A stretch of DNA of 57,641 bases from Chthoniobacterales bacterium (GTDB lineage: Bacteria; Verrucomicrobiota; Verrucomicrobiia; Chthoniobacterales; JACTMZ01), in assembly GCA_014879535.1 (NCBI GenBank), contig JACSRX010000049.1, forward strand, positions 1 through 57,641, read 5' to 3'. Positions 1 to 57,641 of the stretch are shown one piece after another; position 1 is the first letter of the stretch; each line of letters opens with the position of its first letter. The position numbers and the translations under genes are program-made. The notes below the pieces were generated by a model. It worked only from the letters and a program-made list of their open reading frames with translations, had not been told where the DNA came from and made no database searches.

Positions 1-293
1 CCCCCGCTCTCCCCCACCTCAGCATCCCCGCCCTCCCGCCCTGCTCCCTCTTGCTTGCCTTTCTCGGATACGAGGTAGTCCTTCAACTCGTCCACATCCG
101 TCTGCAGGTCCGAGATCTGCTGTTCAACAACGTCACGATCTTCGTCAGCTGCGCGCGGTTCGACATGCTTCGTTGCTTGCCGTGTGATGAGCGCAATAAG
201 GATGGCGATCAGGACTATGCCGCCGAACGCGTTGCAGATCGTATCGAGCAAAAGGTCCAAGCTGTCCTTTCGATCTGTGCCCAATTTCCTCAT
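1..293 (-). CDS. ExbD/TolR-like single-pass protein, truncated by window edge
   Basis: This is the last gene visible in the minus-strand operon; the frame is open to base 1, so its C-terminus is missing and only 97 residues are seen. A short cytoplasmic start is followed by a transmembrane helix at about residues 15-37 (CNAFGGIVLIAILIAL) with an acidic residue, D17, at its start. D17 aligns with D19 of the upstream protease gene product. After the helix comes a coiled-coil-like stretch and then a Gly/Glu-rich linker. In the ExbD/TolR/MotB families such a helix carries the proton-relaying Asp and pairs with an ExbB/MotA channel, which is encoded two genes upstream. The ATG at 293 lies 22 bases after the previous stop. 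The family assignment is by helix pattern only. Confidence 0.7.
   Translation of the reverse strand, partial: MRKLGTDRKDSLDLLLDTICNAFGGIVLIAILIALITRQATKHVEPRAADEDRDVVEQQISDLQTDVDELKDYLVSEKGKQEGAGREGGDAEVGESG
26..41 (-). other. Potential G-quadruplex tract
   Basis: The minus strand reads GGGCGGGAGGGCGGGG, four G-runs with single-base loops, inside the Gly/Glu-rich linker of the truncated ExbD-like gene. This matches the standard G4 pattern. It may be only a consequence of Gly codons in a G-rich linker, and it may also have contributed to an assembly break near here. Confidence 0.4.
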
Positions 294-315
294 CGTGATT
301 ATTTCCTCTGGAAGC

Positions 316-1929
316 TCACGGATAAACCAGGATCATCACAGAAGCTTGTTCTGCGTCGCTGACCACATCCTCGAATGTGGCGTCTTCTGTGGTCCTGACC
401 GGAGGCAGTGACAGGCCTGCGATCTTCTGCTCGGCAATCCAATCGAGCAATTTGGCACTCTTAATCGCGAAGTTCACATTCTCAGCGATTGTTCCAGTCA
501 TCTGCATGACCAGCTCCATGTTGATTTTGCCTGATACCACGCCGACAACGTTGCCGCGAAGGTCGAAAAGCGGACCACCTGAATTCCCCGGTTGGACCGA
601 CACACTTATCTGGAACATGTCAGGGTCGTCCTGAAGTCCAGCGAGACTTGCTATTTCCCCCTTGGTACATTTTGGCGAGATGCCCTGCAGGAATGTATTG
701 GGAAATCCGATGGTGGCCACGGTCTGCCCCAAACGGACGGATTCGCTTCGAGCAATGGGGAGGTGTTGAAAATCCGCGCCCTCAATCTTCAACAACGCGA
801 GATCGAGGCTCTCGTCTCCTGCTATCTTGCAGGCTCGGCGCCAACCCAAAGCTTGTGACCCCACAAAAATGGTCTCGCAGCCTGCAACCACGTGATCATT
901 TGTCACGAATATCCCATCTGAGGATACCAGAAATCCTGAGCCAGTCTTCACGGGATCTCCACGCTTTTCCAACTCCTTCCGTATGTCTATGGCTTGCCCG
1001 TCTGGATGCGTTTGGGGCTCCGCGGATGCCTCTCCGGCCGGGGGGCTCGTATCAACAGGGGGTTCCGTCTTCGGCGGCACTATCTCGGGTGCCACCGCGA
1101 ACCGCACTTGTGCATCTTCATCCACAAGGTCGTAGCCGATTTCATACCGCAGCGCTTTGGCCTTCTCATTGATGGTGTCGAAATCACCGAGAGAGGAAGG
1201 ACGAAAGTAGAAGACAACGTATTGCTTGGAAGGATCCAACTCCTTCAATGCCTCGCCCAAGTCGTCATCGACACTCCCCCTTCTTTTGATTTCGTGCAGA
1301 TCTCTTGCATCAACTGACTGCACCGAGAAATGGCCCCGGAATACGGAAATCAGAACCGGTTCCTTGGATGTGCGACTCCGCTCCGGAATGAGCCAGAGAT
1401 CTTGGGTGTTCCTCAGCTCCGCAAGCACGGCCTGCTCCGCGTGTTCGACCCGGAGACGCGCCTCCTCGATTTGGTCTGTCCTTTCTTGGATGCGCATCCG
1501 CGTAGCCTTGAGTTCAGCAGCGGCCTGTTCGTTTGCCCGTCGGACCGCCTCGACGTCCACATCGGATTCATTCGTGTCATCCAAGTTCGATGCACTTCGG
1601 GCGATCCGCTCGGTGTCTGTATCCAGCGCTTCGGCAAGCTCATTCAAATTGGCTGCCTCAGCTTGGAGTGCAGCATCGTCCGCTAGAACTGCCTTTGTGG
1701 TGGGGTGCGCCGTTGCAGCCTGCAATTTCAGTCGCGCCAATTCCTCTCTGAGGGTGTCCCGAAGCGCAACCCGGGAGCGATCGGCAACCGCAGAGGTCGT
1801 CAAAGGCTTTGTGATCTGCAATGCCATGAGCAATGCGATGAGCAGAACGATGCCCGTGACCGCCGTGATGATGTCTTGGAAGGCAAAAAAGCTGATCAAC
1901 GGTTGAGATCGGAGAAGTCGGCGCTTCAT
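316..1929 (-). CDS. ExbD-like transmembrane helix fused to trypsin-like serine protease
   Basis: A 537-residue protein. Residues 13-38 form one hydrophobic helix (FQDIITAVTGIVLLIALL) with D19 placed like the proton-relay Asp of ExbD/TolR. Residues about 50-180 are a Glu/Arg/Ala-rich coiled coil, followed by a globular spacer and a Pro-rich linker. Residues about 325-505 are an S1C (DegP/HtrA-type) trypsin-like domain with the full triad: H346 in TNDHVVAG, D376 in LDLALLKI and S450 in QPGNSGGPLF. No PDZ domain is visible. With the N-terminus inside, the protease lies outside the inner membrane. It starts 16 bases after the ExbB-type gene, and I infer its helix packs in that channel, so proton flow and proteolysis may be linked. 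The domains are clear; the coupling is inference. Confidence 0.85.
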   Translation of the reverse strand: MKRRLLRSQPLISFFAFQDIITAVTGIVLLIALLMALQITKPLTTSAVADRSRVALRDTLREELARLKLQAATAHPTTKAVLADDAALQAEAANLNELAEALDTDTERIARSASNLDDTNESDVDVEAVRRANEQAAAELKATRMRIQERTDQIEEARLRVEHAEQAVLAELRNTQDLWLIPERSRTSKEPVLISVFRGHFSVQSVDARDLHEIKRRGSVDDDLGEALKELDPSKQYVVFYFRPSSLGDFDTINEKAKALRYEIGYDLVDEDAQVRFAVAPEIVPPKTEPPVDTSPPAGEASAEPQTHPDGQAIDIRKELEKRGDPVKTGSGFLVSSDGIFVTNDHVVAGCETIFVGSQALGWRRACKIAGDESLDLALLKIEGADFQHLPIARSESVRLGQTVATIGFPNTFLQGISPKCTKGEIASLAGLQDDPDMFQISVSVQPGNSGGPLFDLRGNVVGVVSGKINMELVMQMTGTIAENVNFAIKSAKLLDWIAEQKIAGLSLPPVRTTEDATFEDVVSDAEQASVMILVYP

Positions 1930-1945
1930 AACGAACTCAACCCGT

Positions 1946-2842
1946 TTATTCGGTTTCCATCTTCTTCAGCCTCAGCCGCGAGACCATGTTCGCGTGGCAG
2001 TAGTCATTGCAATTGTCCAGAAACTCGGATTCCTGCGATTGCAGGAACGTGATCAGCAGTTGAAGGATCAGGGCATCCACCAAGGCCACAAATGTTGTGT
2101 CAAAAGCTGTGGAGAGCCCCGCGGTCACTCCCTGCAAGGAGTTGCGTATGGCTTCCATATCCGCCCCAGCCTGAAGCGTGCGGCCAAACGCGCCGATGGC
2201 GTCGCCCAACCCTACAACCGTTCCGATGAATCCGATCACGGGAATGGCCCAGATGAAGCCGTTCAAGAGGCTGTAGCTTGATGCGATCTGGGCCTCGTCA
2301 TTCTCGGCTTGGGTTTGCAGGATACTCGAAACATCACTCACCTGGCCTATATTTCGCAGGCTCGAAAGAGCCCTTTCGATCCGATTAAGCAGCATGAAGT
2401 GCCCCGTGGCGTCGGCCAACGTATGCATGCGATCCAGGACCGGTTGAGCGGTCGCCGGGGTGAGCACAAAATCAGGTTGGGCGGGAAATACAGCCAAGCC
2501 CAAGGCTTTGCGCTGGAACCGAAGCTTCCGCCACTTGATGAACAAGATGCTCAATGCCCAGAAAAAGAGCAGCATGGATGCATACTGAAACCACCCTCGA
2601 TCCAGAAAACGGTCAGTGATTCCCCTTAGATCAGGGAATTGGTGAGCGACAACAACCATGATCCCAAAGAAAATCGCTGTAAGGAGCAAGCCGATCAGGA
2701 ATGTGAGCACCCGATTCACACTCGTGAAACGCCCTCCTTGGAACATGAGCCGTTGCTCAATGTCATCTCGACTCCAGTTAAGCTGGTAGTCACGGGGACC
2801 AAACGGATCCGGTGTGCTGGTAGGGTTGGGATCAGGTGTCAT
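1946..2842 (-). CDS. MotA/TolQ/ExbB-family proton channel subunit
   Basis: A 298-residue inner-membrane protein with hydrophobic segments near residues 44-68, 84-104, 190-218 and 240-268. The last two carry the family signature (IPVIGFIGTVVGLGDAIGAF, then LSTAFDTTFVALVDALI). In TolQ, ExbB and MotA these helices line the proton path and pair with a TolR/ExbD/MotB helix; two such partners follow in this operon. A cytoplasmic region of about 85 residues separates the second and third helices, as in ExbB. It lacks the long C-terminal tail of ZorA from Zorya defence systems. The GYF gene ends 36 bases upstream. The family call is secure; which partner it uses is not known. Confidence 0.88.
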   Translation of the reverse strand: MTPDPNPTSTPDPFGPRDYQLNWSRDDIEQRLMFQGGRFTSVNRVLTFLIGLLLTAIFFGIMVVVAHQFPDLRGITDRFLDRGWFQYASMLLFFWALSILFIKWRKLRFQRKALGLAVFPAQPDFVLTPATAQPVLDRMHTLADATGHFMLLNRIERALSSLRNIGQVSDVSSILQTQAENDEAQIASSYSLLNGFIWAIPVIGFIGTVVGLGDAIGAFGRTLQAGADMEAIRNSLQGVTAGLSTAFDTTFVALVDALILQLLITFLQSQESEFLDNCNDYCHANMVSRLRLKKMETE

Positions 2843-2878
2843 GGCAAATCAAAGGAAAAATCATCGGCTTTTGGTGGA

Positions 2879-3865
2879 TCATTTCATTCCAGTGAGGATC
2901 ACAGCAAGCACGGCAAGCACAATAAATCCGATAATGATGCTTATGATTACATTTGCTACCGTATCCAGCTTTTTAGTTCGTGCGTAGCCAGCTGGCGCGA
3001 AGAGGCACAGCATCCCGACATAGAGATTGGCAATCGGCAAGAACAGCAAGAGGGACAACCAGCCACTTTTGCCTATGTTCTGGAGGCGGAGCACCGCGAG
3101 GACCACACTCCCGGCGATCAATACAAAGTTGGAACCGAGCTCCACGCTCGGATCAGTCTTGGCAGCAGCGGTGAGGAGAGTCGCCAAAAGAAAAACCCCT
3201 AACAGGGATAAAAAGTAGGCCAGACGTCCGATCCCTGGGTCTGGCCCCGCCTGTCCATGACGAGTCGGGGTCGATTCCGAAAATTGGTCGTGAGCTGAAT
3301 GCGAACCAGTCATCAGCGAAACCGGAGGAGAACCCAGACCGATGAAACCAAGATTCGCGATGGGCTGCCACTCCGCCATACCCTCTTTCCAGTAGAGCGA
3401 CGCATCTCGCAACATCCCTTGAGCGAGCATGGAGCGTAGATGTTTGTCCTCGTAAACACGGGAGCTTCCATCAGCCAAAATCACGTGAACCGATTGACCG
3501 AGCGGCGGTGGTGGCGCAGCGACAGGATTCAGATTCGCCACGGGGGCTGAATCGAGTGCGGCACTTTGCGGAACCTGCTGGGCCTCAACTGATTCGTTAC
3601 TAGTTTCGGCACTTTCAAACGAGCTTGGTGTCTCGAACTTGGTCTCTTGCACACGGGATCGCGGGTGTGGCCGTGGATGCGGACTCAGCCAACCCGCATC
3701 AGCGGCAAAGTCATCCATGCTGACCCATTGCCCGTTCCAGAAGACTTGGTGATTCAGGCTGATATCCCCCTCGTCCAGCATCCGCCTGAGCGTGAGAAGA
3801 TCATACGGTCCTGACGTTTGGCCCTTCCATCGCAAAGGGAGTTTTATTCCCGGTTGGGTGTTCAT
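2879..3865 (-). CDS. Membrane protein with two GYF_2-like domains and a DUF805-like region
   Basis: A 328-residue protein. Residues about 9-52 form a GYF_2-type module (LRWKGQTSGPYDLLTLRRML, then FWNGQW). A second, more divergent copy lies near 126-176 (VYEDKHLRSMLAQGML, then YWKEGMAEW). The two are joined by a Pro/Ser-rich linker. The C-terminal 130 residues hold about four membrane helices with a DUF805-like signature (LRLQNIGKSGW). GYF domains generally bind proline-rich peptides; several Pro-rich linkers occur in this operon, so it may act as a scaffold. The ATG at 3865 overlaps the upstream stop in an ATGA, which fixes the start and implies translational coupling. Function unknown. Confidence 0.75.
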   Translation of the reverse strand: MNTQPGIKLPLRWKGQTSGPYDLLTLRRMLDEGDISLNHQVFWNGQWVSMDDFAADAGWLSPHPRPHPRSRVQETKFETPSSFESAETSNESVEAQQVPQSAALDSAPVANLNPVAAPPPPLGQSVHVILADGSSRVYEDKHLRSMLAQGMLRDASLYWKEGMAEWQPIANLGFIGLGSPPVSLMTGSHSAHDQFSESTPTRHGQAGPDPGIGRLAYFLSLLGVFLLATLLTAAAKTDPSVELGSNFVLIAGSVVLAVLRLQNIGKSGWLSLLLFLPIANLYVGMLCLFAPAGYARTKKLDTVANVIISIIIGFIVLAVLAVILTGMK

Positions 3866-6800
3866 GGCGAGGTGCCTGATGCCATCGCATCTTTGAATAG
3901 CGGAGGAAGCTGTGCGGAGTAGGCCGCCATCTCGTCCTCATCAATACCCAAACCACGCATCTCACCCTGCACAGCGTCCTTGCTGAGTGTCTGAATCGCA
4001 AAAACTGGGGTCAACGGCGCCGCCTTCGTGACAGAATTGTATTCCCCCGAGCCTTCCCTGCTGAACACGGGAACCAAACCTTCCGCCTCATCTTGGAACC
4101 CCCAAAGCAGGCTCGATTCACCTCCGGGACTCGCGCCACTCGATACGAGCCGTCCGTCGGCACCAACGAATCCGCGATATTGAAGGCCTGTCCCGAGCAC
4201 TGAGGCGGCCAGCCGCCGATGAAGTTTGGCTTGAGTTTCATAGCTGATCGTCGAGCCGCTGCTGATCACCTGCTTGACCTTGTCCGCGAGTGACGCCTTG
4301 GAGGGCAGCATCCAATCTTCGGACTTCAGCTGACCCCCGGCCGCTTCACGCAGGCTGGCGACCTCTTGTTGGTATGCCGGCGCCCATGCCAGCCCCCACG
4401 CGCCCGATCTGATCTGGGCGATGCGTCCGAGTTCCTGCAGCACGTAAGCTTGAACGAGTGGCGGACAGTCCTTGCTGCTGCGAACTCGATCGAGTATCGG
4501 CAGAATACTTTGCCGGTATTTGCTGCCATCTGGATTTACCAAGTCCCCAAGCTTCATTGATCTGAGGGCTTCTGAAGCCTTGGAGAGCGCACCACCAGAG
4601 ACATAGTCGCCCGAGGGCTCTCCCGTGACCGGCGATACCCGATAGGTATAAACAGAATCCACGAAGACAACCGAACTTGCCGATTGGGAAGGATCATAAA
4701 CTGTGCCTGCCCAAGACTTGGCAGGTGCCCCATCTCGAAAGCTGAGTTCGCCCTTGGAGAAAATCCTCCGACCGCTCCCGAAATTTTGCTGCGCCACTGC
4801 GGCCGGGGGAACAACCTTGGCTTCGCGAATGTCAGCCAAGTTGGGCTCGTTGATCAGGGAGATCAATATGTCCCGCTCGCCATCCCTCGGGGTCTCGGGA
4901 AGGGGCAGCTTGTCGAAGTCCGGTTTGTCCGTCGCCGCAACCCATGCTTCCGGCGAGGTAGGCAGGATGAGCTGCCCCAAGAGATGGCCTGCATCGAGCT
5001 TTCGCAGGGCCGCCTTTTGTGCCGCCTGCACGTCCGGCGCACCAGGAAAGCCAATCTTGGCCAACCCTTGAACGGCTTGCATGTATCCCTGCGTGTCGGT
5101 GGCCGAGGCAAGGGTGCCGATCGCTGTGCGGTAGGTCTGCAACAAATCCCTCACCGCATGAACACGGTCCACCGCGGCTTGTGCCTCAGCTTGGAGGGCG
5201 GCGGGCACCGACACCTCAGCGGCTTGATCGTCCAGAACCGACTGAACGCTCTCGATCCTGGGCGTGATCAGGACAAGATGCTCCTCAAGAGATGAAGGAT
5301 TCTTGGACGCGGTAAGTTCAGCCAGCTGCGGCTGTATTTCCCCCAAGATCTTGCGGAGGTTGGCCGCGCGTTCGTTTCGCTGCTCGGGGAGCCACAAAGC
5401 CAGCTTCTTTTCCGCCTTGGCAAAGTCCACCCTCAAAGGGTCGGCTGCGTCGCTCGGCAGGGCATCCAAATCGGCTGCTACCTGCTGAAACAATGCAATC
5501 GCCCTTCCAGGTGCGATGTTTGCAAAGTTTGCGTCAGCAACTTTTTGTGCCTCTGTGACAGCAATTCTTGCCGCCTCCTTCTTCGTTTCAACCACCCCAA
5601 GCCACTGCTCCGCGTCGATCACCGCGGATGAAAGTTTCGGAAATTGCAGAAGCAAGGAACGTCGTGCTCGGAGATCATACACCAAGCGGTGCACGGCAAC
5701 AGAGGCTCCCCGCTCCCGCAGCTGACGAATCTCGCTCGCGTAGCTTCCGGCCCGATAGAACAGGTATCCAAAGGTCCCAGCGCTTGCGATGAGCGCGATG
5801 ACAACGATGGTTGCACTCACCCTGCGGAGTCTTTTCATTTTGCGCAACCTCTGCGCCTCGACATCGAGGGATGACGCCAGTTGTGCCACAGCTTGGGTTG
5901 TGCTTTCAGGGATGGGTTTGTCGAAAGCCTTCGCTGCTTCGTAAAGTTTCCGCAACGAGAGCATATCGGCCTCGATCTGTTGCAAACCGCAGTGCTCCGC
6001 GGAAAACCTCATTCCTTGCAGAGTTTCGACCCCCTCGGCCAAGGCATCCAAGGAAGCTCTAAACCGTGCATCGGCGATTGCAGCCGAACGTTGCTCCTCG
6101 AAATACTGCATTGCACCGGCAACCACTGAGGCGTCCTCGGACGCGAGGGCGATACCATGGGTTTCCGCCATCGAACGAATACGGGATGCTCTCTCCCCAC
6201 ACTGTTGCCAAAATCCGTCGGCCCGGAGCTGCGGCATCTCGGCGATCATGGAGCGAATGTCACGAGCCGCCTCAGCGGCAAGGTGCGACGCACGAACCTC
6301 GCGCCCCTGCATCAATGCTTCGCAGTCGGCCACTTCCAATGCCTCACACCGGTCCAACCAACGAATAATTGCACCTTCATCCCCAGCTGCCACGACCTTC
6401 TCAAGATTGGCCTTGGCGGACTCTTGCGCCTTGCGCTCCAGACGCGCCAACTCGCTGGCGGCATCCGCATCGGCCGGATCAAGCCGGGTGATCGCACGGA
6501 TGACGTCCAAAGCCCGTGCTTCGTCCTTCGTTGCCATCGCACCCCGAAAGTCGTGGTAAAGCGCTTTTGTCTGATCTGCCTTTCGCCCCGAGGCATAAAG
6601 GTCGTTGAGCAAATTCAAAGCGTGCCGGTCGAACGGCATCGGCAACGGCAAAGAATTCTCTCCGCAAAACTCCAGCCACTGCCGCTGCTTGGAGAATCCC
6701 AAGACACCGAGCAAGTCCATGAGTGGCGGCTTCTCCTCTGCGAAGAGCAGCGCCTGCAGGGCGCTTCCATCCTCAATCATGCGAGCACATTGTGCCAGCC

Positions 6801-6927
6801 GCTGGTTCGCTGCCCTACAGGCCTCGGTGTATGCGCTTGCCAAGTCCAACTCAGATGCAGCAACCGGTCGCCCGGACAGCCGAGCGTTCATGTGATCGAC
6901 CAAGCGTTTTGCGTCGGCGAGGGTCAT
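3862..6927 (-). CDS. Large single-pass coiled-coil protein, function unknown
   Basis: A protein of 1021 residues. The start is taken at the ATG at 6927, which overlaps the stop of the GAP1-like gene in an ATGA; an upstream TTG at 6993 would lie inside that gene. The N-terminal 370 residues are Ala/Glu/Arg-rich and mostly helical, including a compact segment near residues 65-100 (PPLMDLLGVLGFSKQRQWLE). One membrane helix lies near 371-391 (ATIVVIALIASAGTFGYLF). The 630 residues after it are predicted extracytoplasmic: first helical coiled coil, then a more globular C-terminus. I recognise no enzyme motif. Overlaps on both sides tie it to the GTPase/proton-channel operon, where its size suits a trans-envelope stalk or adaptor. 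Confidence 0.8.
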   Translation of the reverse strand: MTLADAKRLVDHMNARLSGRPVAASELDLASAYTEACRAANQRLAQCARMIEDGSALQALLFAEEKPPLMDLLGVLGFSKQRQWLEFCGENSLPLPMPFDRHALNLLNDLYASGRKADQTKALYHDFRGAMATKDEARALDVIRAITRLDPADADAASELARLERKAQESAKANLEKVVAAGDEGAIIRWLDRCEALEVADCEALMQGREVRASHLAAEAARDIRSMIAEMPQLRADGFWQQCGERASRIRSMAETHGIALASEDASVVAGAMQYFEEQRSAAIADARFRASLDALAEGVETLQGMRFSAEHCGLQQIEADMLSLRKLYEAAKAFDKPIPESTTQAVAQLASSLDVEAQRLRKMKRLRRVSATIVVIALIASAGTFGYLFYRAGSYASEIRQLRERGASVAVHRLVYDLRARRSLLLQFPKLSSAVIDAEQWLGVVETKKEAARIAVTEAQKVADANFANIAPGRAIALFQQVAADLDALPSDAADPLRVDFAKAEKKLALWLPEQRNERAANLRKILGEIQPQLAELTASKNPSSLEEHLVLITPRIESVQSVLDDQAAEVSVPAALQAEAQAAVDRVHAVRDLLQTYRTAIGTLASATDTQGYMQAVQGLAKIGFPGAPDVQAAQKAALRKLDAGHLLGQLILPTSPEAWVAATDKPDFDKLPLPETPRDGERDILISLINEPNLADIREAKVVPPAAVAQQNFGSGRRIFSKGELSFRDGAPAKSWAGTVYDPSQSASSVVFVDSVYTYRVSPVTGEPSGDYVSGGALSKASEALRSMKLGDLVNPDGSKYRQSILPILDRVRSSKDCPPLVQAYVLQELGRIAQIRSGAWGLAWAPAYQQEVASLREAAGGQLKSEDWMLPSKASLADKVKQVISSGSTISYETQAKLHRRLAASVLGTGLQYRGFVGADGRLVSSGASPGGESSLLWGFQDEAEGLVPVFSREGSGEYNSVTKAAPLTPVFAIQTLSKDAVQGEMRGLGIDEDEMAAYSAQLPPLFKDAMASGTSP

Positions 6928-9608
6928 TGCGTGGGATCGGGAGTCGCTTGTAGAGAAGGAGATACAGTCACGTTCGTGCTGATCAGATACCAAGGTCCGT
7001 TGGTGTCGCGGCGGCCAGCTAGGCTATATTTCAACCCAGCGGGCGCGGAAATTGGTGAACCGAGGATTTCCGCAAAGACCTGCTTGATTTCCTTGGAGAG
7101 TTCAGATGCCCGTAGCCTAACGATACCCGAGTCTGTTGAGAACAATCCCTCCACCTTCGGAAGATCATTCAACCAAGTCTTGGAGCTTGCTAGAGCATTC
7201 TTGTTGCTTGGCTTTGCCCCGCCACCTGCGCGAGAATCTACGGCCTTTTCAGCATAAAGCTTCGCCCCTCTCCAGTTAGCCTTGTCAGCCTCGATTTGGG
7301 CAAACTTTCTGAAGTCGCCAAAAGTTTCATCCTTACTGCTTGCTTTCGGAGGGTCAGGAAACTCACTGATTTTGTCGAGATAAGCATGGAGCAGCGTTGC
7401 AACATACTCGTTGGCGCTCTTTTGATCGGCTATGGCTGCCGGTTCGGCCACCGACTTTGGAGGAGAGCCGTCCAACACTATTTGAAGATCTGTCACGACC
7501 TTCTGCACGCGATCGCGCAGAGCGGTTAGCTCGGTGTTCGCCACGCCCACTTCATCGCGGCTCGCTTTATTCTCCGCTCTTGCGAGGATCACGTTGATGC
7601 TGGCCTTTGCGGCTTGCGCATCAAGACTCCCGTCATTTGACAAACCGAAGTTGATACTTTGCAGTTCCTTGAAACTTTGCTCGTCGATCACTGTTGAATC
7701 TAGCGCTCTGGTGGCCGCATCGATGATTGCGGACTTGGGCGGCTGCTCAGCACGAATCACAAATTGCGCTGCTTGCAATTGGCGTCCATTCTCGGATTTG
7801 GATTGGCCGATATCAAATGAGCCAAGAATTTGTTGAACCGGGGTCGGCCCTGAAGATCGGAGAACCAGCCCACCGTTCTCCGGCAGGATCGACAATCCAC
7901 TTTGCCGCAACGGATCCTCCGGGGGAACGATGTCTTGAAGGGGGCGATCTGATCTCTTCGGCAACACGCATACGATGGTTTCACCGTGGGGGGCATCAGG
8001 ATCGGACACGCGAACTACAATACCATCATGTTGTTCGATACTTATGGGAGATATGTCGGCCCCCTCTGTCTTGAAAACCACCACCTTGTTCCCATCTTTC
8101 CAGTATTCTTCCCCTTGAATCTTATTGGGTGCTCGCAAGTCCGCTCTGGTTCCATCCCTATTGATAGCCACCAATTGAAGCGAAGCCTTATCGGAGGTCG
8201 GCCACCTGAATGATTTCAGGTCTTCAGGAAATAGCCTGACGATCCGCCTTGGCGCTTTCACGCCTCCAGTCGGCGGAACAGACTCCGGCGCAGAATCATT
8301 GATCGACCCCGCCGATGCCGATGCATCGCTGGTTACGGGTCGATTGGAAAGTCCGTCGGCTGGTAGCTTGGACGGAAGAACCTGGGGCTTACTCCCGTCA
8401 ACGTATAAGGTCTGGTTTTCGCCGATGCCTGATGGAACGCCCCCTCCCTTCGAAGGAATATCCGTGTTCGCTCCCGTTGCGGATCGAATAGTATCGCGCT
8501 TCAAAGCGCCCTCTGACTCATCCTTCCCTCTAGCAACGACCGAAGTGCTAGGTTCAGGCATTGATGTCGTCTGTCCTGCATCCTCGCGGCTCGAACTGTG
8601 GATCAACAAGCCGACAGCGACGGCAATCAACACAACCAGCAGAGCGGCGATTGCGAGGGTCGCTGGCGTCACAATCGACCTGCGCGGCTTGGTTAATGTG
8701 GGTCGAGGGGGACAGGAGCTACCCTGAGGAAAACACAACTCCTGCTGCACCCGGGTAGATGTTGCTGATGCTGGGACATCGCTTGATGTTTCTACTGGTA
8801 AATTGATGTGCGGACTAGCCTGCCCCGGGCGGACTGGCGGTGGGCGATATTCCGCTAAGGGTTCCGTCGCAAAAGTGATGTGCTGCCTGCCGGTGCCCAC
8901 AATGCGGGGCAGAATCGGGGAATCTGCCGCCATGCCAATCCAACGAAACTCTGTAGGGTCGTCCGATGGCTGGAGGTTGGTCGTGAAGGTGATCCCCCAT
9001 CCGCTTCTGGCGCAACACGCTTGGGATTCCGCGAACAGCCAAAGAATCCAAGCATATTCTTGGGATTGATACTCTGCCGGGTATTCCAAGAGCATGCCCG
9101 CAGCGGTGTCTTTGCCGGCCAGAAGCCGGACGCGTCGCCAATCCCCCGTTGCATTCCCCCAATGCGGTCCTTCTGTATCCGCATGCAAACCCGTAGGTTG
9201 CCAGAGATCGCCATCACCGAGCCATCCAGCCGCCTCATCAAAGCTGCCAATCCAAGTGTATGCCAGCATGGCCCCGGCCGGGGTGATCCCACGCTTCTCG
9301 AGACCGCTCGCCTCCGCTTCCGAAAGCACCAAGTGCTCGGCTATATGGTTGGTGCGCCCGCTGTAGTCCGTGCCTGCATCCGCAATCCGCGATAGAAGGT
9401 GGAAGGCCCCCGCGCTACTGCGCACCACGCGATACGCAAAGACCACTCGATTCGAGTCAAACCCCGCTTGACGGCTGAACTGTGACGATCGCTCAGCGGC
9501 TTCAACAACAAGCGGGGGAATGTCCCGGTGCCTCGCTACGGTGCCAAATCCGGACCGGCCTGCCTGCAGCAGACGCGAGGCGCTTGTGTAAATCAGCCTC
9601 CACGCCAT
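6924..9608 (-). CDS. GAP1-like GTPase-associated protein with transmembrane helix
   Basis: An 894-residue protein. Residues 2-245 resemble the N-terminal domain of GTPase-associated protein 1 (GAP1-N type 2): an opening LIYTSASRLLQAGRSGFGTV, then YSGRTNHIAEHLVL near 82-95 and WGITFTTNLQPSDDPTEFRW near 204-223. A Pro/Ser linker and one membrane helix (about 313-337) follow, then about 550 residues that should lie outside the membrane and that I do not recognise. GAP1 proteins have been predicted by comparative genomics to work with TRAFAC GTPases in conflict systems. Here the GTPase gene ends just 5 bases upstream, in keeping with that. The family name is from memory of its motifs, not from a search. 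Confidence 0.7.
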   Translation of the reverse strand: MAWRLIYTSASRLLQAGRSGFGTVARHRDIPPLVVEAAERSSQFSRQAGFDSNRVVFAYRVVRSSAGAFHLLSRIADAGTDYSGRTNHIAEHLVLSEAEASGLEKRGITPAGAMLAYTWIGSFDEAAGWLGDGDLWQPTGLHADTEGPHWGNATGDWRRVRLLAGKDTAAGMLLEYPAEYQSQEYAWILWLFAESQACCARSGWGITFTTNLQPSDDPTEFRWIGMAADSPILPRIVGTGRQHITFATEPLAEYRPPPVRPGQASPHINLPVETSSDVPASATSTRVQQELCFPQGSSCPPRPTLTKPRRSIVTPATLAIAALLVVLIAVAVGLLIHSSSREDAGQTTSMPEPSTSVVARGKDESEGALKRDTIRSATGANTDIPSKGGGVPSGIGENQTLYVDGSKPQVLPSKLPADGLSNRPVTSDASASAGSINDSAPESVPPTGGVKAPRRIVRLFPEDLKSFRWPTSDKASLQLVAINRDGTRADLRAPNKIQGEEYWKDGNKVVVFKTEGADISPISIEQHDGIVVRVSDPDAPHGETIVCVLPKRSDRPLQDIVPPEDPLRQSGLSILPENGGLVLRSSGPTPVQQILGSFDIGQSKSENGRQLQAAQFVIRAEQPPKSAIIDAATRALDSTVIDEQSFKELQSINFGLSNDGSLDAQAAKASINVILARAENKASRDEVGVANTELTALRDRVQKVVTDLQIVLDGSPPKSVAEPAAIADQKSANEYVATLLHAYLDKISEFPDPPKASSKDETFGDFRKFAQIEADKANWRGAKLYAEKAVDSRAGGGAKPSNKNALASSKTWLNDLPKVEGLFSTDSGIVRLRASELSKEIKQVFAEILGSPISAPAGLKYSLAGRRDTNGPWYLISTNVTVSPSLQATPDPTQ

Positions 9609-9613
9609 GGCTG

Positions 9614-11401
9614 TTAATTTGCGGCGCCCTCCGGCACGAGGTGGGGCTCAATTTTCGACAGCAACCAGAGCACGGGAATTTCCACAAGTATGGGCTCAAT
9701 CTTCGATGGGTCAGGACCGAGAATTGGAACACCGTTGGCATCGCGTCCAAGAACCTCGGGCGAGCACCCGAATGAGCTCACAGGAAAGTATTTCACTTGG
9801 TGCGACATTGCCTCGGCGCTTGCGACGATTTGCGGACAGATGTCTATGAGCAGATCCCTCACCAGGGTGGAATTCTCGTCGATCGCTTTGGTATCCAGAC
9901 AGCCATCAAGGATGGGATACGAAAGGTCGTCGCGCTCGATCAACTCACCCCATACATCCAATTTGCCCACCACCACCGCCAGCGGCGTGTTCAACTTCTC
10001 ACGCCCATCAAGGCCAATGATCTTCTTCACCAGCACACGGGCCTCGGTGAGGATCGTGTCCTGAATATCGGCGTGTCCGACGACCTTCAGCTGGGGGTCA
10101 TGGTGTCCGTTCAAGCGGCGGCGGAACTCCTTGTTGTAAGCTGGATCGAACAGAAAAATGATTCCAGAGGACGCCGCGAGATGTTGGGTTCCGGGCTGCT
10201 TTGTTTGGTCAATGCCCGGCTGGAAGTGTTCCCCGGCGTTATCGTAAAAAATCAGCGCCCGCGCCTCGGAGGGGTTGTCGCGGGGCTGGATGTTGAAAAT
10301 GAACGGCTTCGGCAAGTAAACCTTGCGCCCATGTCGGGTAAGCTGCTCATACATGTCGCCCTCGAGATCGGTCTTTGCGAGACGAGCCTGTTCGGGTGTC
10401 GATGCGCCAAAGAGCGTATCCCTCATCATGGTTAGCGCAGCATTACTTGAAGGGTCCGCATCCACGAAAGCGGTGTTGAAATGCCGGAACATGGTCTTCT
10501 GAAACATCTGGGTGAAGACCGAGAGGAAGTAGGATTTCCCAGAGGTCGGCGCTCCGACGATGGAGACGATATGATGCTTCAGCTCGACAAAATCAGGCGG
10601 GAGCTTCCGATGGCAGTGCGGGCAGGCGATGTCCATCGTGGGAATCCCCATCGGGTCAAGAGCCACTCCATTGTCAGAGAATCTCGTGGCCCAAAACCTC
10701 TTCATTTCACCCTCCCCGAGCAGAGCGTCGCCTTTCAGCTTTTCATGCACTGCCACGTGTTTGACGTCGCCCGGATCGAACTTCAACCAACAGGTGGGAC
10801 AAGTCAGAGAACCATGCTCGCCTGTGAGAATTTCCTGCTCCGGCTCTGGTGGCTTTGCCACAGGGGTTCCCAACTCGGAATCACCGGGAAGTGACAAAGC
10901 CGCGAAAATGTCACGAACGGATTCGGTGTAGAAACCGGTGGTCGTTCCGCTCAAATACGCGATGCTCTCGAATTCCCGCTCATGTTTAGGAATTTGACTG
11001 GCAACCCGCTCAGGAGGAAACGGACCCACGTTTGCGCCCGTCGGAACGTGCTGGATCAGCCATTCGCCCACCCGGATACGCGAACACCACGAGGCTGGAT
11101 CTTTCGTCAGGCGCAATACGAACAATTTGTGGCCGAGAATCAGGGAATGATCTTTGTCCCTTTCGACTTCTGAGGCGCTTACCAAATTCCCATTGAAGAA
11201 GATCGTATTCGAGCCCAAGCACCTGATCCAGACTTTGGCATTAACCAAAGCGATCTCACAATGGCGCCCTTGCACCGGTTCCTCCACCACCAAATCGCAC
11301 GCGGGATCTGACCCGATGATGAAAGGCCACTTCCCAGCAACCACTCGCTCTCCCGTGAAACAATCAAACGCGGCCAGTTGGAGTTTTGCAGCAAGACTCA
11401 T
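9614..11401 (-). CDS. FHA domain-zinc ribbon-GTPase (double-GTPase-like)
   Basis: A 595-residue soluble protein and first gene of the operon. Residues 1-100 are an FHA phosphopeptide-binding domain (IIGSDPACDLVV, QGRHCEI, SNTIFFNGN). Residues about 113-140 look GYF-like (GANVGPFPPERV). A split zinc ribbon follows: CPTC at 201-204 and CPHC at 260-263. The P-loop GTPase domain has G1 GAPTSGKS at 283-290, a G3-like DNAG at 387-390 and G4 GKLD at 479-482. This arrangement fits TRAFAC-clade 'double-GTPase 2' proteins linked to GAP1 partners. The frame is open to a TTG at 11488, but the ATG at 11401 sits just before the FHA fold and is preferred. I infer that phospho-signal binding gates the GTPase. 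Confidence 0.78.
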   Translation of the reverse strand: MSLAAKLQLAAFDCFTGERVVAGKWPFIIGSDPACDLVVEEPVQGRHCEIALVNAKVWIRCLGSNTIFFNGNLVSASEVERDKDHSLILGHKLFVLRLTKDPASWCSRIRVGEWLIQHVPTGANVGPFPPERVASQIPKHEREFESIAYLSGTTTGFYTESVRDIFAALSLPGDSELGTPVAKPPEPEQEILTGEHGSLTCPTCWLKFDPGDVKHVAVHEKLKGDALLGEGEMKRFWATRFSDNGVALDPMGIPTMDIACPHCHRKLPPDFVELKHHIVSIVGAPTSGKSYFLSVFTQMFQKTMFRHFNTAFVDADPSSNAALTMMRDTLFGASTPEQARLAKTDLEGDMYEQLTRHGRKVYLPKPFIFNIQPRDNPSEARALIFYDNAGEHFQPGIDQTKQPGTQHLAASSGIIFLFDPAYNKEFRRRLNGHHDPQLKVVGHADIQDTILTEARVLVKKIIGLDGREKLNTPLAVVVGKLDVWGELIERDDLSYPILDGCLDTKAIDENSTLVRDLLIDICPQIVASAEAMSHQVKYFPVSSFGCSPEVLGRDANGVPILGPDPSKIEPILVEIPVLWLLSKIEPHLVPEGAAN

Positions 11402-43168: not shown

Positions 43169-43339
43169 GGGAAACTCCCCCTCTTGTAGCGCAACCCCGG
43201 ACCGAGGCAAAGATCCTGCTTGGCCGGAAATTCGCCCTCAGTGTTTGCAGAAACCCGTGTTTTGGGCTTTAGTATCCCGACGGTGTGTCGGCTGCGTGTC
43301 ATGGAAACGCGGTTCCTCAGCCCGCACGAATCCCCTCCC

Positions 43340-46300
43340 ATGGTCATGCGCATCCTTTTCATCTCGGCATTTCTTGTTGCAAACTCTTGTTTTGCAAGTC
43401 TTTATATCAACGAAATCCAATCGGGAAACACCATCATCCCGGACGACACGGGGCAGACCACCACGGACTGGGTGGAGATCTACAACAGCGGCCCCTCTTC
43501 GGTGAACCTGAAGGGCTACCACCTCTCCGACAGCGCCAGCAATCCCACCAAATGGTCGTTCCCCGACGACACAATCATTCCCGCGGGCGGCCATGTCGTG
43601 GTCTGGGCGTCGAACCGCGTCCCGCTGCCCACATCGTTGCATTCCAACTGGGCCATCAGCGCCGGCGGCGAACCCATCCTGCTCTCCGATCCGCAGGGCA
43701 ACCTCCTCGACCAGTTCCCGTCCACCGCGATCCCCACGAACGTCAGCATGGGACGCAAGCCCGACGGCACGGGTTCCCTGCATTTCTTCAACCAGCCCAC
43801 GCCCGGCGCGGCCAACACGACCACGGGATCCCCCGTTGAAACTCTCGCCGCCCCTGCGTTCTCGGTTCCCGGCGGCATGCACACCTCGGCCGTGTCGGTC
43901 GCGATCACGACCGCGGTCTCCGGCGGCACGATCCGCTACACGCTCGACGGGTCCGACCCGACGGAATCATCCCCGGTTTACACCGGCCCGATCAACCTCG
44001 ACAGCCGCACCGGCGATCCCAATGTCCATTCGGCGGTCCCCACGAACTACCTCGACACCGGCGGGCCGTTCTACGAGGGCTGGCAGCCTCCCGACGGGGA
44101 GGTCTTCAAGATCAACGTCCTGCGGGCCCGCGTGTTCAAGGCCGGCTCCGACCCCGGGCGCATCACCACGCAGTCGTATCTCATCGATCCCGCGGGCGCC
44201 TCGCGCTACCCGTATCCCGTCGTCTCCATCGCGACGACGCCGGCGAACCTCTTCAGCAACGAGACCGGCATCTACGTCCCCGGCTGGTATAACAACTTCG
44301 CGCAGGAGGGGAGCGCGTGGGAGCGCCCGGGGCACATCGAATTCTACGAGACCGACGGGAGCCTCGCGTTCCAAGGCGCGATCGGCATGCGCATCCACGG
44401 CAACACCACGGTGAACCGTCCGCGCAAGGCCCTGCGCATCTACAACCGCAACCCGGACGGCCCCGCGACGTTCCATCACCGGATCTTCCCCGAGAAGGAT
44501 GTCTCCTCGTTCGACACCTTCCTCCTGCGCGCCGGCGGCAACGACTGGGGGCAGTCATTCCTCCGCGACGCCCTGGTCGGCACCATCGCCGCGCACACCG
44601 GCCTCGACCGCATGGCTTCGCGGCCGGCGGCGGTCTTCATCGACGGCGAATACTGGGGCATCCACAACGTGCGCGACCGCATCGACGAGGGCTACTACCT
44701 CCACCACTACGGCCTCACGGACACCCAGTTCACGCAACTCGAAGTCGGGGCCGACGGCTCCCGGAGCTGGCCGATCTACGACCGCGGGGAGCCCTCGCTG
44801 CTGTCCGATTTCACGGACATCCTCGACCGCGCATGGGCCGGGGAATTCGCCACGGCGCAGGGATACGCGTCGCTGACCCAGCGGATCGACATCGACAACT
44901 TCATCGACTACCAGATCCACGAGATCTGGGCGGGCAACACCGACTGGCCGGGCAACAACGTCCGGCTCTGGCGCGCCGTGACGCCGGACACCTCCCCGGG
45001 CGCCAACCCGCGCCACGACGGGCGCTGGCGCTGGATCCTGTATGACACCGACTTCGGGCTCGGGCTCGATTTCTACTACGTGCCCGGCGTCAACGAGGGT
45101 CCCAACCACGACACGCTCTCCTACGCGTCGCTCGAGGGGGGCGGCAGCTTCATCGGCAACCGCGAGGAAGGCACGCGCATGCTGCGCAAGACGCTCGAGA
45201 ACGCCGAGTTCCGCGGCAAGTTCATCAACCGCTTCGCCGACCTCCTCAACTCGTCGCTCTCCTCCTCGAATGCCGGGGCCAAGCTGGACGCCTTCGAGGC
45301 CCTCTACGCGCAGGGCATGACCGAGCACGTGAAGCGCTGGCGCCAGCCGTTCAACTGGACCAACGACATCAGCCGCATCCGCAATTACATCCAGCAGCGC
45401 CCCGCCGCCGTGCGCGGGCACATCGCCAACCGCTTCGGGCTCGCCGGCACGGCCCCGCTCACGATCGGCGTTTCCGGCGCGGGTCAGGGAACCGTCAGGG
45501 TCAACACGCTCGATCTCGCCCCCGGCACCGAGGGCGTTGCGCCGGACCCCTACCCTTGGACCGGCACGTATTTCCGGGGGGTGCCGGTGACGCTCACCGC
45601 ACAGCCCGGTCCCGGCTACCGTTTCGTGTCGTGGACCGACAGCGGGGCGACGAACACCAACGGCGCCACGGTCCTCGCCGCGGACTCGACCGCGAACTAC
45701 GGCGGGGTGTGGACCAACAACCCTCCGAACGGGGGCACCGGGTTCAACGCATGGGTGCTCACGGACACGGGGTCGTTCGACGACGGCTTCTTCATCGGGA
45801 GTTCCGGGCGCCCGATCCATTCCTCCTCTCCGGACGGCCGTTCGTTCGGCATCTACGGGCACAGCGGCGGTTCCGCGTCCGCGACGCGCCCGTTCGCCTC
45901 CGGCGCGCTGCAGACGAACCGCACGTTTTCCGTGAAGCTTTCGCCCGGCGGGTTCTCCGGGACCAAGGGCATCCTGCTCGGCGAGCCGGGCACGAACCGT
46001 TTCGGGTTCACGACATGGAGCACGAACGGCTCCCCCGGTTACTGGTTCCGCAACGGCGACACCGAGACCGCCCTCAACGGCACATTCTCCCCGGATGAGA
46101 ATTCGACGTTCGACGTCAGTGTCACCCGCCTGGGCGACAACGTCCACCGCATGACCATCGTCCGCAACGGCACGACGTTCACCACGAACTTCACCGCCAC
46201 CGGCACGGTGGACCGCGCGGTGTTCTTCCACACCAACTCGGCCAACAGCAGCGACACGAACAACCTTTATTTCAACCTGCCGACCATCACCGAGACCACC

Positions 46301-48361
46301 GGCGTTCCCACGCTCACGAACACGGTCCTCGAGGTGGACCTGGCAGGCGCACGCAGCATCACGGCGAATTTCGCGCCGGAGGCCGCTTCGTCGCTGGCCA
46401 TCGAGAGCCCGGCGGTCTGGGCGCTGGGCACCACGCTGCCCGAGGTGCGCGTCCTCGCCCTGACCGGGACGGGCGACCCCGACCCGAACTTCGCAGGCAC
46501 CGTGACGCTCGTCATTTCCGGTCCCGGCGGCTTCTCGCAGCAGTTCCACGCGCAGGCCGTCGAGGGTGTCGCGGTGTTCCCGGGCCTGTCGCTGCCCGCC
46601 GCCGGCAACTACACCCTGGGCGCCGTGTCCGGGGCGTTGTCCACCGGGGCGGATTCCCCGCTCGCCGTCAACGACGCCGCGACCTTCCTTCCCGCCGGCA
46701 ACGGGACGTGGAACGAGGCCTCCAGCTGGGACATCGCCGCGGTCCCGAACAGCGCGACGGCGCGCGTGCGGATCCCGACGATCGCCGCCGACCGCAACGT
46801 GAACCTCACCAACCACGTCACCGCGGCCGCGATCATCTTCGACAACGGGGCCGCGACCAACCGCAACCGCATCCGCAACAACAATGCGACTGCCACGCTC
46901 ACCCTGCAGGCCGGGGTCGAACCCGCCTCGATCACGGTCAACGGCAGCGCCTCGGGCCATGCCAACCTCGAATTCACCAACGCCGGCAGCCTCGTGCTGG
47001 CCGGCGACGTCGTGCTCGACGTGCAGAACGCGGCGGCGGGCAACGCCGAATACGGCGCGCTGCGCCTGCAGGGCAACGTGGGCGGCCCGGGCGGCATCAT
47101 CAAGCGCGGTCCCGGCATGGCCGGCATCACCGGCGCCGGGAAGACCTTCTCCGGCAACGTGGTCATCGAGCAGGGAGTGCTGACCTTCAGCGAGCCCGCC
47201 CTCACCGGCAACGGCGCGACGAACTACACGGTCCAGCCCGGCGGCCAGCTGCGCCTCAGTTCGGCCTTCGCCACGGCGGGGGTCCCGCGCACCAACCACC
47301 TCAAGGGACCGCTGAACCTCGCGGGCGCCGGACGGAGCGGCGTGCCCGACAGCGAGGGATTCGGCGTGCTCGGCGCGCTGCGCCTCGAGACCGGGAGCAC
47401 CGGCACCACCGCCGTGCTCACCAATGCCGTCAACCTCACCGCCAACGCCGACATCCACGCCGCGGCCGGCAACGGCATCAGCCTCCAGGGTCCCCTGCAG
47501 GGAACCTCCCTGCTGTCGAAATCCGGCGGGGGCACGCTCACCCTCGGCGCCTCCGCTTCCGGCTTCGCCGGCGGGATCGGTGTCAACCGCGGCACGCTCG
47601 CCCTCGACGCGGCCGCCTTCACCGACACGACCAACACCCTCACGCTGGCGGCGGAGACCACCCTCGCCGGCAACGGGCGCTGGAACGGCATGCTGCAGGC
47701 GCAGGACGGCTCCGCGCTGTCATTCGTCCTCGGGGCCTCCCCCGCGCCCGGGGCGCTGCTCCGCGCGGGCCACGTCCTTGCCTCCGGCACGGTGACCGTC
47801 GCGGTCCAGCCCGCCCCCGGTTCCGTCGAGGGCACCTACCCGCTCCTGGCCGTGGACGGTTCGTTCGTCGGCACGAACAACCTCGCCCTGAGCGTCGGCT
47901 CGACGAACTTCCCGGCATCGGCGCTGGTGATCAGCAACCAGACGCTCTCGGTCTCGCTGCGTGCGGCGCTGACCGACCGCGAGCAATGGCTCGGACTCCA
48001 CGGGTTGCCGACGGACGGTTCGGGCGACGGCGCCGATGATGCCGACCCGGATGGCGACGGCATCGCCAACATCTTCGAGCGCGCGTTCTTCCTCAGCCCG
48101 GTGGTCGCGGACGGCGCGCTGCCCGTCGCCACCGCCATGCCGGACGACGGCGTCGTGGTCGTGACCTACCGCACGGCCAAGAACCAGGCCGACCTCAACG
48201 TCGTGCCGGAGACCGGCACCAGCCTGCTGCCCGGCGCGGAGTGGACCCCTGCAACGCCGGCCGTCGTGGACGACACCCATCCGGATTACACCGTCTGGAA
48301 GATCGAGTTGCCCGCGGAGCCCGGCGCCGGTTTCGCGCGTTTCAAGGTCAGCCGCCAGTAG
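43340..48361 (+). CDS. Giant secreted protein: lamin-tail, CotH kinase-like and autotransporter beta-strand repeats
   Basis: A 1673-residue protein from the ATG at 43340, followed at once by a signal peptide (ILFISAFLVANSCFA). In order: a lamin-tail domain (about 20-150, LYINEIQSG...DWVEIYNSG), a chitobiase C-terminal-like domain (about 170-215, IRYTLDGSDPTESSPVY), a CotH protein-kinase-like domain (about 290-700, with RPRKALRIYNR and WRWILYDTDFGLGL), a bacterial repeat module (about 745, VTLTAQPGPGYRFVSW), then a beta-rich region with autotransporter-associated strand repeats (about 1130-1430, GKTFSGNVVIEQGVLTFS). The end has a calcium-loop-like DGADDADPDGDGIANIFERA near 1563-1585. No PEP-CTERM or barrel is seen. 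Presumably cell-surface or secreted. Confidence 0.9.
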   Translation: MVMRILFISAFLVANSCFASLYINEIQSGNTIIPDDTGQTTTDWVEIYNSGPSSVNLKGYHLSDSASNPTKWSFPDDTIIPAGGHVVVWASNRVPLPTSLHSNWAISAGGEPILLSDPQGNLLDQFPSTAIPTNVSMGRKPDGTGSLHFFNQPTPGAANTTTGSPVETLAAPAFSVPGGMHTSAVSVAITTAVSGGTIRYTLDGSDPTESSPVYTGPINLDSRTGDPNVHSAVPTNYLDTGGPFYEGWQPPDGEVFKINVLRARVFKAGSDPGRITTQSYLIDPAGASRYPYPVVSIATTPANLFSNETGIYVPGWYNNFAQEGSAWERPGHIEFYETDGSLAFQGAIGMRIHGNTTVNRPRKALRIYNRNPDGPATFHHRIFPEKDVSSFDTFLLRAGGNDWGQSFLRDALVGTIAAHTGLDRMASRPAAVFIDGEYWGIHNVRDRIDEGYYLHHYGLTDTQFTQLEVGADGSRSWPIYDRGEPSLLSDFTDILDRAWAGEFATAQGYASLTQRIDIDNFIDYQIHEIWAGNTDWPGNNVRLWRAVTPDTSPGANPRHDGRWRWILYDTDFGLGLDFYYVPGVNEGPNHDTLSYASLEGGGSFIGNREEGTRMLRKTLENAEFRGKFINRFADLLNSSLSSSNAGAKLDAFEALYAQGMTEHVKRWRQPFNWTNDISRIRNYIQQRPAAVRGHIANRFGLAGTAPLTIGVSGAGQGTVRVNTLDLAPGTEGVAPDPYPWTGTYFRGVPVTLTAQPGPGYRFVSWTDSGATNTNGATVLAADSTANYGGVWTNNPPNGGTGFNAWVLTDTGSFDDGFFIGSSGRPIHSSSPDGRSFGIYGHSGGSASATRPFASGALQTNRTFSVKLSPGGFSGTKGILLGEPGTNRFGFTTWSTNGSPGYWFRNGDTETALNGTFSPDENSTFDVSVTRLGDNVHRMTIVRNGTTFTTNFTATGTVDRAVFFHTNSANSSDTNNLYFNLPTITETTGVPTLTNTVLEVDLAGARSITANFAPEAASSLAIESPAVWALGTTLPEVRVLALTGTGDPDPNFAGTVTLVISGPGGFSQQFHAQAVEGVAVFPGLSLPAAGNYTLGAVSGALSTGADSPLAVNDAATFLPAGNGTWNEASSWDIAAVPNSATARVRIPTIAADRNVNLTNHVTAAAIIFDNGAATNRNRIRNNNATATLTLQAGVEPASITVNGSASGHANLEFTNAGSLVLAGDVVLDVQNAAAGNAEYGALRLQGNVGGPGGIIKRGPGMAGITGAGKTFSGNVVIEQGVLTFSEPALTGNGATNYTVQPGGQLRLSSAFATAGVPRTNHLKGPLNLAGAGRSGVPDSEGFGVLGALRLETGSTGTTAVLTNAVNLTANADIHAAAGNGISLQGPLQGTSLLSKSGGGTLTLGASASGFAGGIGVNRGTLALDAAAFTDTTNTLTLAAETTLAGNGRWNGMLQAQDGSALSFVLGASPAPGALLRAGHVLASGTVTVAVQPAPGSVEGTYPLLAVDGSFVGTNNLALSVGSTNFPASALVISNQTLSVSLRAALTDREQWLGLHGLPTDGSGDGADDADPDGDGIANIFERAFFLSPVVADGALPVATAMPDDGVVVVTYRTAKNQADLNVVPETGTSLLPGAEWTPATPAVVDDTHPDYTVWKIELPAEPGAGFARFKVSRQ

Positions 48362-57604: not shown

Positions 57605-57641
57605 CTGTCTCTTATACACATCTGACGCTGCCGACGACGGA
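57605..57641. other. Nextera (Tn5) sequencing adapter, not genomic
   Basis: The 19-base Tn5 mosaic end CTGTCTCTTATACACATCT lies at 57605-57623, followed by GACGCTGCCGACGA (57624-57637), together the complement of the Nextera read-1 adapter. The last four bases (CGGA) would then be the start of an index. On the minus strand this yields the false N-terminus MCIRDR. Confidence 0.97.

Follow-up and report, generated by a model that had tools for sequence, protein, structure and literature searches.

A verrucomicrobial operon linking a GAP1-N2 GTPase pair to an ExbB/ExbD-type motor and exchangeable peptidases: a candidate trans-envelope system

At one end of a 57,641-nucleotide stretch of Chthoniobacterales DNA (contig JACSRX010000049.1 of assembly GCA_014879535.1), here called the window and equal to the entire contig C49 of that assembly (genome G000), lies a run of genes described in a first-pass annotation as 'seven or more' coupled members of a single envelope-spanning system. 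Seven minus-strand open reading frames (ORFs) were indeed recovered at 3–11401, all at the positions then claimed, and are referred to below as g7 to g1 in order of transcription. The intergenic gaps in this order are +5, −4, −4, +36, +16 and +22 nucleotides, and since two of the six equal −4, the ATGA overlaps proposed at 6924–6927 and 3862–3865 are real. The genes and their features are as follows.

9614–11401, minus strand: g7, DO-GTPase2 of 595 residues with FHA domain, zinc ribbon(s) and GTPase domain (Pfam, motifs)
6924–9608, minus strand: g6, GAP1-N2 cytosolic domain, one transmembrane (TM) helix and a periplasmic part of ~550 residues (Pfam, TM prediction)
3862–6927, minus strand: g5, cytosolic domain resembling tetratricopeptide repeats (TPR), one TM helix, helical periplasmic stalk and mixed C-terminal domain (AlphaFold2)
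2879–3865, minus strand: g4, two GYF domains and four TM helices (PF14237, two stretches)
1946–2842, minus strand: g3, ExbB/MotA-type channel subunit (PF01618, 42 bits; alignment)
316–1929, minus strand: g2, ExbD-like TM helix, coiled coil, TolR-like periplasmic domain and trypsin-like domain (motif, model, Pfam)
538–942, minus strand: trypsin-like domain of g2, residues 330–464 (PF13365, 105 bits; His/Asp/Ser motifs intact)
3–293, minus strand: g1, the other ExbD-like protein, truncated at the contig edge, with Asp17 in its TM motif LLLDTICNAFGG (alignment)

Matches above the Pfam cut-off were obtained for DO-GTPase2 and FHA in g7 (PF19993, 34 bits, and PF00498, 27 bits), GAP1-N2 in g6 (PF20013, 63 bits), GYF_2 twice in g4, MotA_ExbB in g3 and Trypsin_2 in g2, bearing out the GTPase, the GAP1-like partner, the double-GYF membrane protein and the channel that had been named from the letters alone, while g5 and g1 gave no meaningful Pfam match. 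A search with a g1 profile placed the missing C-terminus of g1 on another contig of the assembly, C24, at its very beginning (G000:C24:34–288), where it reads ...DGASPPPL (compare ...EGAAPSPL in the homologous locus L039). Part of the sequence left of base 1, whose recovery had been called for, is thereby recovered; judging from homologue length, ~0.3–0.4 kb is probably missing between the two contigs. Beyond g1 on C24 lie unrelated genes, one methyltransferase-like and then apparent threonine-pathway genes, and no von Willebrand factor A (vWA) gene is found downstream of g1 on this contig. Because g1 terminates there and unrelated genes follow, the operon has exactly seven genes, and the 'or more' falls away. 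Remnants of the Illumina Nextera transposase adapter (AGATGTGTATAAGAGACA) are present at contig ends (window 57606–57623, minus strand, and C24, L245, 1–31), and the artefact peptide LVGSEMCIRD is encoded in the first ORF of C24.

The GTPase g7 carries a P-loop (GAPTSGKS, 283), DNAGE (387) and GKLD (479), preceded by the zinc-ribbon cysteine pairs CPTC (201/204) and CPHC (260/263), and in 27 relatives the zinc cysteines and the G1, G3 and G4 motifs are invariant or nearly so. Its N-terminus is variable: the FHA domain of the window is matched in relatives by a GYF domain, a GYF domain with a zinc ribbon, or nothing. The suggestion that a phospho-signal switches the GTPase is not general, since FHA is replaced or absent elsewhere. 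The partner gene g6 follows at a distance of 5 bp. Of the GAP1-N, GAP1-M and GAP1-C domains of such systems Pfam reports the N2 domain only, a TM helix at residues 318–336 has a positive-inside flank, and the periplasmic part evolves fast, showing 34–58% identity in sets where GTPase and channel show 79–91% (the GTPase by itself 82–91%). The AlphaFold2 model of g5 (pLDDT 79.6) consists of a TPR-like solenoid, a TM helix (372–390), a helical periplasmic stalk and a mixed C-terminal domain, with a weak match to a designed-TPR profile (E 0.001); the protein had been described as a single-pass coiled coil, of which the single pass stands and the plain coiled coil does not. Profiles of g6 and g5 found only generic helical or TPR matches in the PDB, and Foldseek with the g5 model returned no specific structural relative.

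In g3 the residues T208, T249 and T250 are invariant within the aligned, conserved TM region. The two other motor genes represent distinct ExbD-like families, with motifs LLLDTMCNTFGG in g1 and SFQDIIT in g2 (FQDIIT with Asp19 in the window). Neither is matched by PF02472, and the designation ExbD-like, made already in the first-pass annotation, holds because of the nearly invariant TM aspartate motif, the ExbB neighbour and the predicted fold of g2, whose model resembles TolR (5by4) over residues 180–270 (Z 8.2, root-mean-square deviation 3.3 over 85 residues; Foldseek E 7.9e-3, probability 1.0). Of 34 loci whose sequence extends far enough, 33 have both genes, and the TM aspartate is kept in 41 of 43 g1 and 50 of 52 g2 proteins, exceptions being read by eye. 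L068 and L130 lack it in g1, L156 and L164 in g2 (the motif reading LLLGPMCN or FQSVI), and no locus lacks it in both proteins, a pattern that would fit a heterodimer although four cases are too few for a test. Two further observations concern these genes: the g2 homologue L202:8440–10056 has, in place of a peptidase, a long Gly-rich tail with two Trp-rich amphipathic segments (WWQRLLGWFGF and GWWQRFLEWIGL), and in L064, L069, L071, L074 and L126 a Gly-rich single-TM protein with a vWA domain follows g1.

Evidence that these genes act together comes from their recurrence. As the first-pass annotation had proposed, co-occurrence was checked, here in 289 Verrucomicrobiota genomes searched with the GTPase, ExbB and the Pfam GAP1-N2 model, window-type ExbB being defined as scoring >200 bits. 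There are 24 such copies in 23 of the 289 genomes, and all 23 contain GAP1-N2, itself found in 48 of the 289 (hypergeometric P 4.9e-21 for co-occurrence, the genomes not being independent); each copy examined adjoins the GTPase core or a contig edge. The single-system reading thus withstood, within Verrucomicrobiota, the check that might have refuted it. The complete order GTPase-GAP1-g5-GYF-ExbB-ExbD-ExbD occurs in L039, L040, L056, L058, L063 and many more, dozens of genomes in all, with proteins 15–57% identical to those of the window, and since synteny persists at such identities the arrangement is far above chance. Genes g3, g2 and g1 change place together, as a block that is upstream in L042, divergent in L138, convergent in L130 and adjacent every time. 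Among classified loci 51 (type A) have ExbBD, seven are of type B and five of type C (both described below), and seven lack a visible module; g5 and g6 are retained throughout types A (51/51) and B (7/7). A scan of genome contigs yielded 480 relatives, of which the best 80 are almost wholly from Verrucomicrobiota and include the isolate Brevifollis gellanilyticus NBRC 108608 (L164, Prosthecobacter/Brevifollis gellanilyticus). The distribution of the window-type GTPase is patchy, with none in 10 congeners and eight in 197 genomes sampled from the order, and in an empty-site comparison the operon flanks were not syntenic within the genus.

The core is not confined to proton motors. In the type B loci (L047–L051, L055 and L057, family f33 of the same phylum), where GAP1 comprises the short cytosolic domain only, the core is followed, without ExbBD, by a PilM-like gene (PF11104, PilM_2, above cut-off) and by two small single-TM proteins that weakly resemble PilO/GspM and PilP. 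These genomes have two to three PilM paralogues each, the core-linked one being the divergent copy and the canonical PilM lying elsewhere. The GTPase tree follows the attached module, ExbBD requiring four changes versus 16.2 in shuffled data and PilM a single change with support 95. The type C neighbours (phosphodiesterase, PPTase) were judged to be there by chance, and the Mucinosome/MUL literature, consulted for the Akkermansia-like loci of this type, had no bearing on the system. As for other ExbB proteins, the 3.2 Mb G000 genome has eight MotA/ExbB-family matches, the operon copy lying furthest from the Pfam model; a widespread second family (L109–L116) combines an ExbB-type protein of ~475–500 residues with two ExbD-like proteins of FQDII type and no GTPase nearby, and in L117–L120 a different, lower-scoring ExbB family occurs with vWA genes and no GTPase.

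The peptidase is an exchangeable component. The window trypsin has intact motifs (TNDHV, DLALL, GNSGGP), and the ExbD-trypsin fusion reported in the first-pass annotation is real; its generality is another matter, as it was found in the window alone and in none of ~50 other g2 proteins, so that a trypsin domain as fixed part of ExbD was rejected. Of the relatives found, the GYF-TM-Sel1-trypsin protein of L138 comes closest (E 1.2e-46). The GYF slot occupied here by g4 holds a peptidase in 16 of 51 type A loci, namely Trypsin_2 in seven, PrsW in five and a transglutaminase-like domain in four, the last being a motif call with no Pfam match; GYF domains of several payload proteins were recognised by eye or local profile rather than by Pfam. 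Weak trypsin matches near L132 and L144 were set aside as chance neighbours. Particularly instructive are L160, with trypsin, and L149, with a transglutaminase-like payload, which are 92% (g7), 87% (g5), 93% (g3) and 87% (g2) identical, and whose g4 proteins share 82% identity in the N-terminal GYF-TM part and only 26%, i.e. are unrelated, in the C-terminal part. From this exchange between operons ~90% identical, a constant GYF-TM anchor with swapped peptidases emerges, and the change of payload within the Prosthecobacter group is, on these identities, evidently recent. The window trypsin is accordingly a member of this exchangeable payload, relocated onto the ExbD-like protein g2, and one form of a recurrent theme.

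No characterised system with all of these parts was found, as the first-pass annotation had supposed, and the closest precedents each share only some of them. GAP1-N2 systems, likewise membrane-associated and with a zinc-ribbon DO-GTPase followed by GAP1-N2, were described by Kaur et al. 2020 (PMC7159879), who recorded them in verrucomicrobiae, pointed out planctomycete proteins in which a GYF pair is joined to trypsin or to a TM-rich region, and assigned them a conflict role as a prediction only. That text names neither ExbB, ExbD nor TolQ, the ExbB and ExbD pair and PilM-type coupling being absent from it, and a search of the open literature found no further GAP1-N2 paper. The present system is a variant of these computationally predicted GTPase systems, its function likewise predicted, and the PrsW and transglutaminase-like payloads, their swapping and the TPR-stalk protein g5 seem to be novel. 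Predicted force transducers from the Planctomycetes–Verrucomicrobia–Chlamydiae (PVC) group, described in 2025, combine tolQ with a heterologous tolR pair, TPR and vWA genes (PMC12204202); they likewise have one TolQ-like, two different TolR-like and a TPR protein, and vWA-TM genes recur in some loci here, but they contain neither GTPase nor GAP1, an arrangement that L117–L120 resemble. In Myxococcus, GltJ has a zinc ribbon and a GYF domain, and the GTPase is MglA. The AglRQS-Glt machinery, whose GTPase-controlled motor is the best studied with one TolQ and two TolR subunits, resembles the present system in having one TolQ-like and two TolR-like proteins, FHA, TPR and GTPase control, a likeness at the level of the parts list (PMC3169522, PMC9389320). 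It differs in the Ras-like MglA, as opposed to a DO-GTPase, and in having no peptidase payload, and no outer-membrane or periplasmic Glt components were seen in the operon or on C24, although no Glt-profile search was made. Zorya ZorAB also pairs a MotA-type channel with a B subunit as a motor, but only the MotA domain of g3 aligns, weakly (E 8e-6, PADLOC), the remaining operon genes do not match the PADLOC Zorya models, and ZorC, ZorD and ZorE are missing. Finally, type B loci recall PilM-N-O-P of the type IV pilus in having PilM_2 beside the core and two small single-TM proteins thereafter, but their genes are paralogues beside the canonical PilM of the genome, and assignment to PilO and PilP is weak.

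A separate feature of the window is a 1713-residue ORF (43220–48361, plus strand) with lamin-tail (LTD), CotH kinase, Fn3-associated and InlB-like repeat domains.

Gene content, motifs, positive-inside topology, recurrent linkage and the exchange of both partner modules and payloads are established, and support the envelope-spanning association of GTPase and proton motor put forward in the first-pass annotation. We infer from them that the seven genes could encode one trans-envelope machine, in which g3 would assemble as a pentamer into a proton channel, with g1 and g2 paired inside it as a heterodimeric axle to which each contributes one TM helix with a proton-binding aspartate, in a 5:2 arrangement of the ExbBD/TolQR/AglRQS kind. 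Cytosolic g7 would gate or assemble this motor together with its GAP1-N2 partner g6 and the TPR-bearing side of g5, the controller docking via GYF and FHA/zinc-ribbon modules, and g5 and g6 would span the membrane and extend into the periplasm. Movement or assembly of the motor might then exert force or cause a conformational change in the periplasm, which would bring into place or activate a peptidase anchored there or in the membrane. The payload is trypsin on axle protein g2 here; in relatives the GYF protein carries trypsin, PrsW, a transglutaminase-like domain or none of these. This GTPase-gated, peptidase-positioning motor is a reading we consider evenly poised between acceptance and rejection, and several points weigh against it. 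The g3 profile barely reached TolQ in the PDB (E 0.03), g2 shows a modest predicted likeness to TolR (Foldseek E 7.9e-3, Z 8.2), GAP1 function is a comparative-genomics prediction, and the GYF slot is free of peptidases in 35 of the 51 type A loci, which means that proteolysis cannot be the sole output.

Such a machine may serve antagonism or defence, controlled proteolysis, or adhesion and motility at the surface. It is possible, if on the unlikely side, that the GTPase and GAP1 sense invasion or contact and that motor and peptidase kill the cell or harm an attacker, much as Zorya employs its motor. GAP1-N2 systems are predicted to be conflict systems (Kaur et al. 2020, PMC7159879), as had been stated in the first-pass annotation, and the patchy distribution, the payload swapped between near-identical operons and the fast-evolving GAP1 ectodomain all agree with this. 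However, 94 flanking genes gave few PADLOC matches, mostly generic (e.g. DinG), in a weak test that had no control set; the GTPase has no relatives in viral contigs and phages and a single weak match, from Rhodococcus, in plasmids; and neither a ZorC or ZorD homologue nor a nuclease or toxin domain was found. The defence parallel stands as regards the GAP1-N2 prediction, but not in the flanks, which have little defence content, nor in Zorya, where the tie extends to the MotA domain only.

A surface motility, adhesion or secretion device like Agl-Glt of Myxococcus, with the GTPase setting the polarity of a proton motor and the motor pulling on envelope proteins, would account for the kinds of part shared (one TolQ-like and two TolR-like proteins, FHA and TPR proteins; PMC3169522, PMC9389320), for the vWA-TM gene after g1 in some loci, such genes being predicted force transducers beside PVC tolQ/tolR/tolR (PMC12204202), and for the PilM/PilO/PilP-like platform to which the core is attached in type B. 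It is nonetheless doubtful, as the operon has no outer-membrane partner or TonB-like C-terminus, vWA is absent at the window locus, and the payload peptidases are left unexplained. In Bacillus, PrsW cleaves the anti-sigma factor RsiW, and a GYF slot holding PrsW or trypsin would suit a stress sensor, in which motor and GTPase report the state of the envelope and the peptidase cuts some regulator, for instance an anti-sigma factor. This is distinctly unlikely, given that no sigma/anti-sigma pair was noticed in the operons, that many loci lack a peptidase and that transglutaminase-like payloads fit less well. Lastly, that the GTPase core and ExbBD are unrelated operons adjacent by accident, as occurrence of the core without ExbBD (types B, C and D) might suggest, is highly improbable in view of their linkage in 23 of 23 genomes and at each copy examined, the adjacency kept by inverted blocks, the GYF modules common to both, and the exchange of payload between the GYF protein and ExbD.

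DO-GTPase, GAP1-N2 and g5 might constitute a plug-in controller, serving a proton motor, an actin-like PilM platform and, in published actinobacterial and firmicute systems, tubulin or Hsp70, and with ExbBD a new trans-envelope class with an obligately heterodimeric axle and exchangeable peptidases, a proposal falling just on the doubtful side of even. That trypsin, PrsW and transglutaminase-like domains replace one another behind an unchanging GYF-TM anchor points both to the output and to selection for variable effectors, and the loss of the aspartate from one axle protein only in four loci provides a natural test of the number of protonation sites such motors need. The finding links two threads, the GTPase 'conflict' systems proposed by comparative genomics only and the orphan PVC ExbBD-type motors with paired ExbD, and provides a concrete, conserved and testable machine in culturable bacteria such as Brevifollis gellanilyticus.

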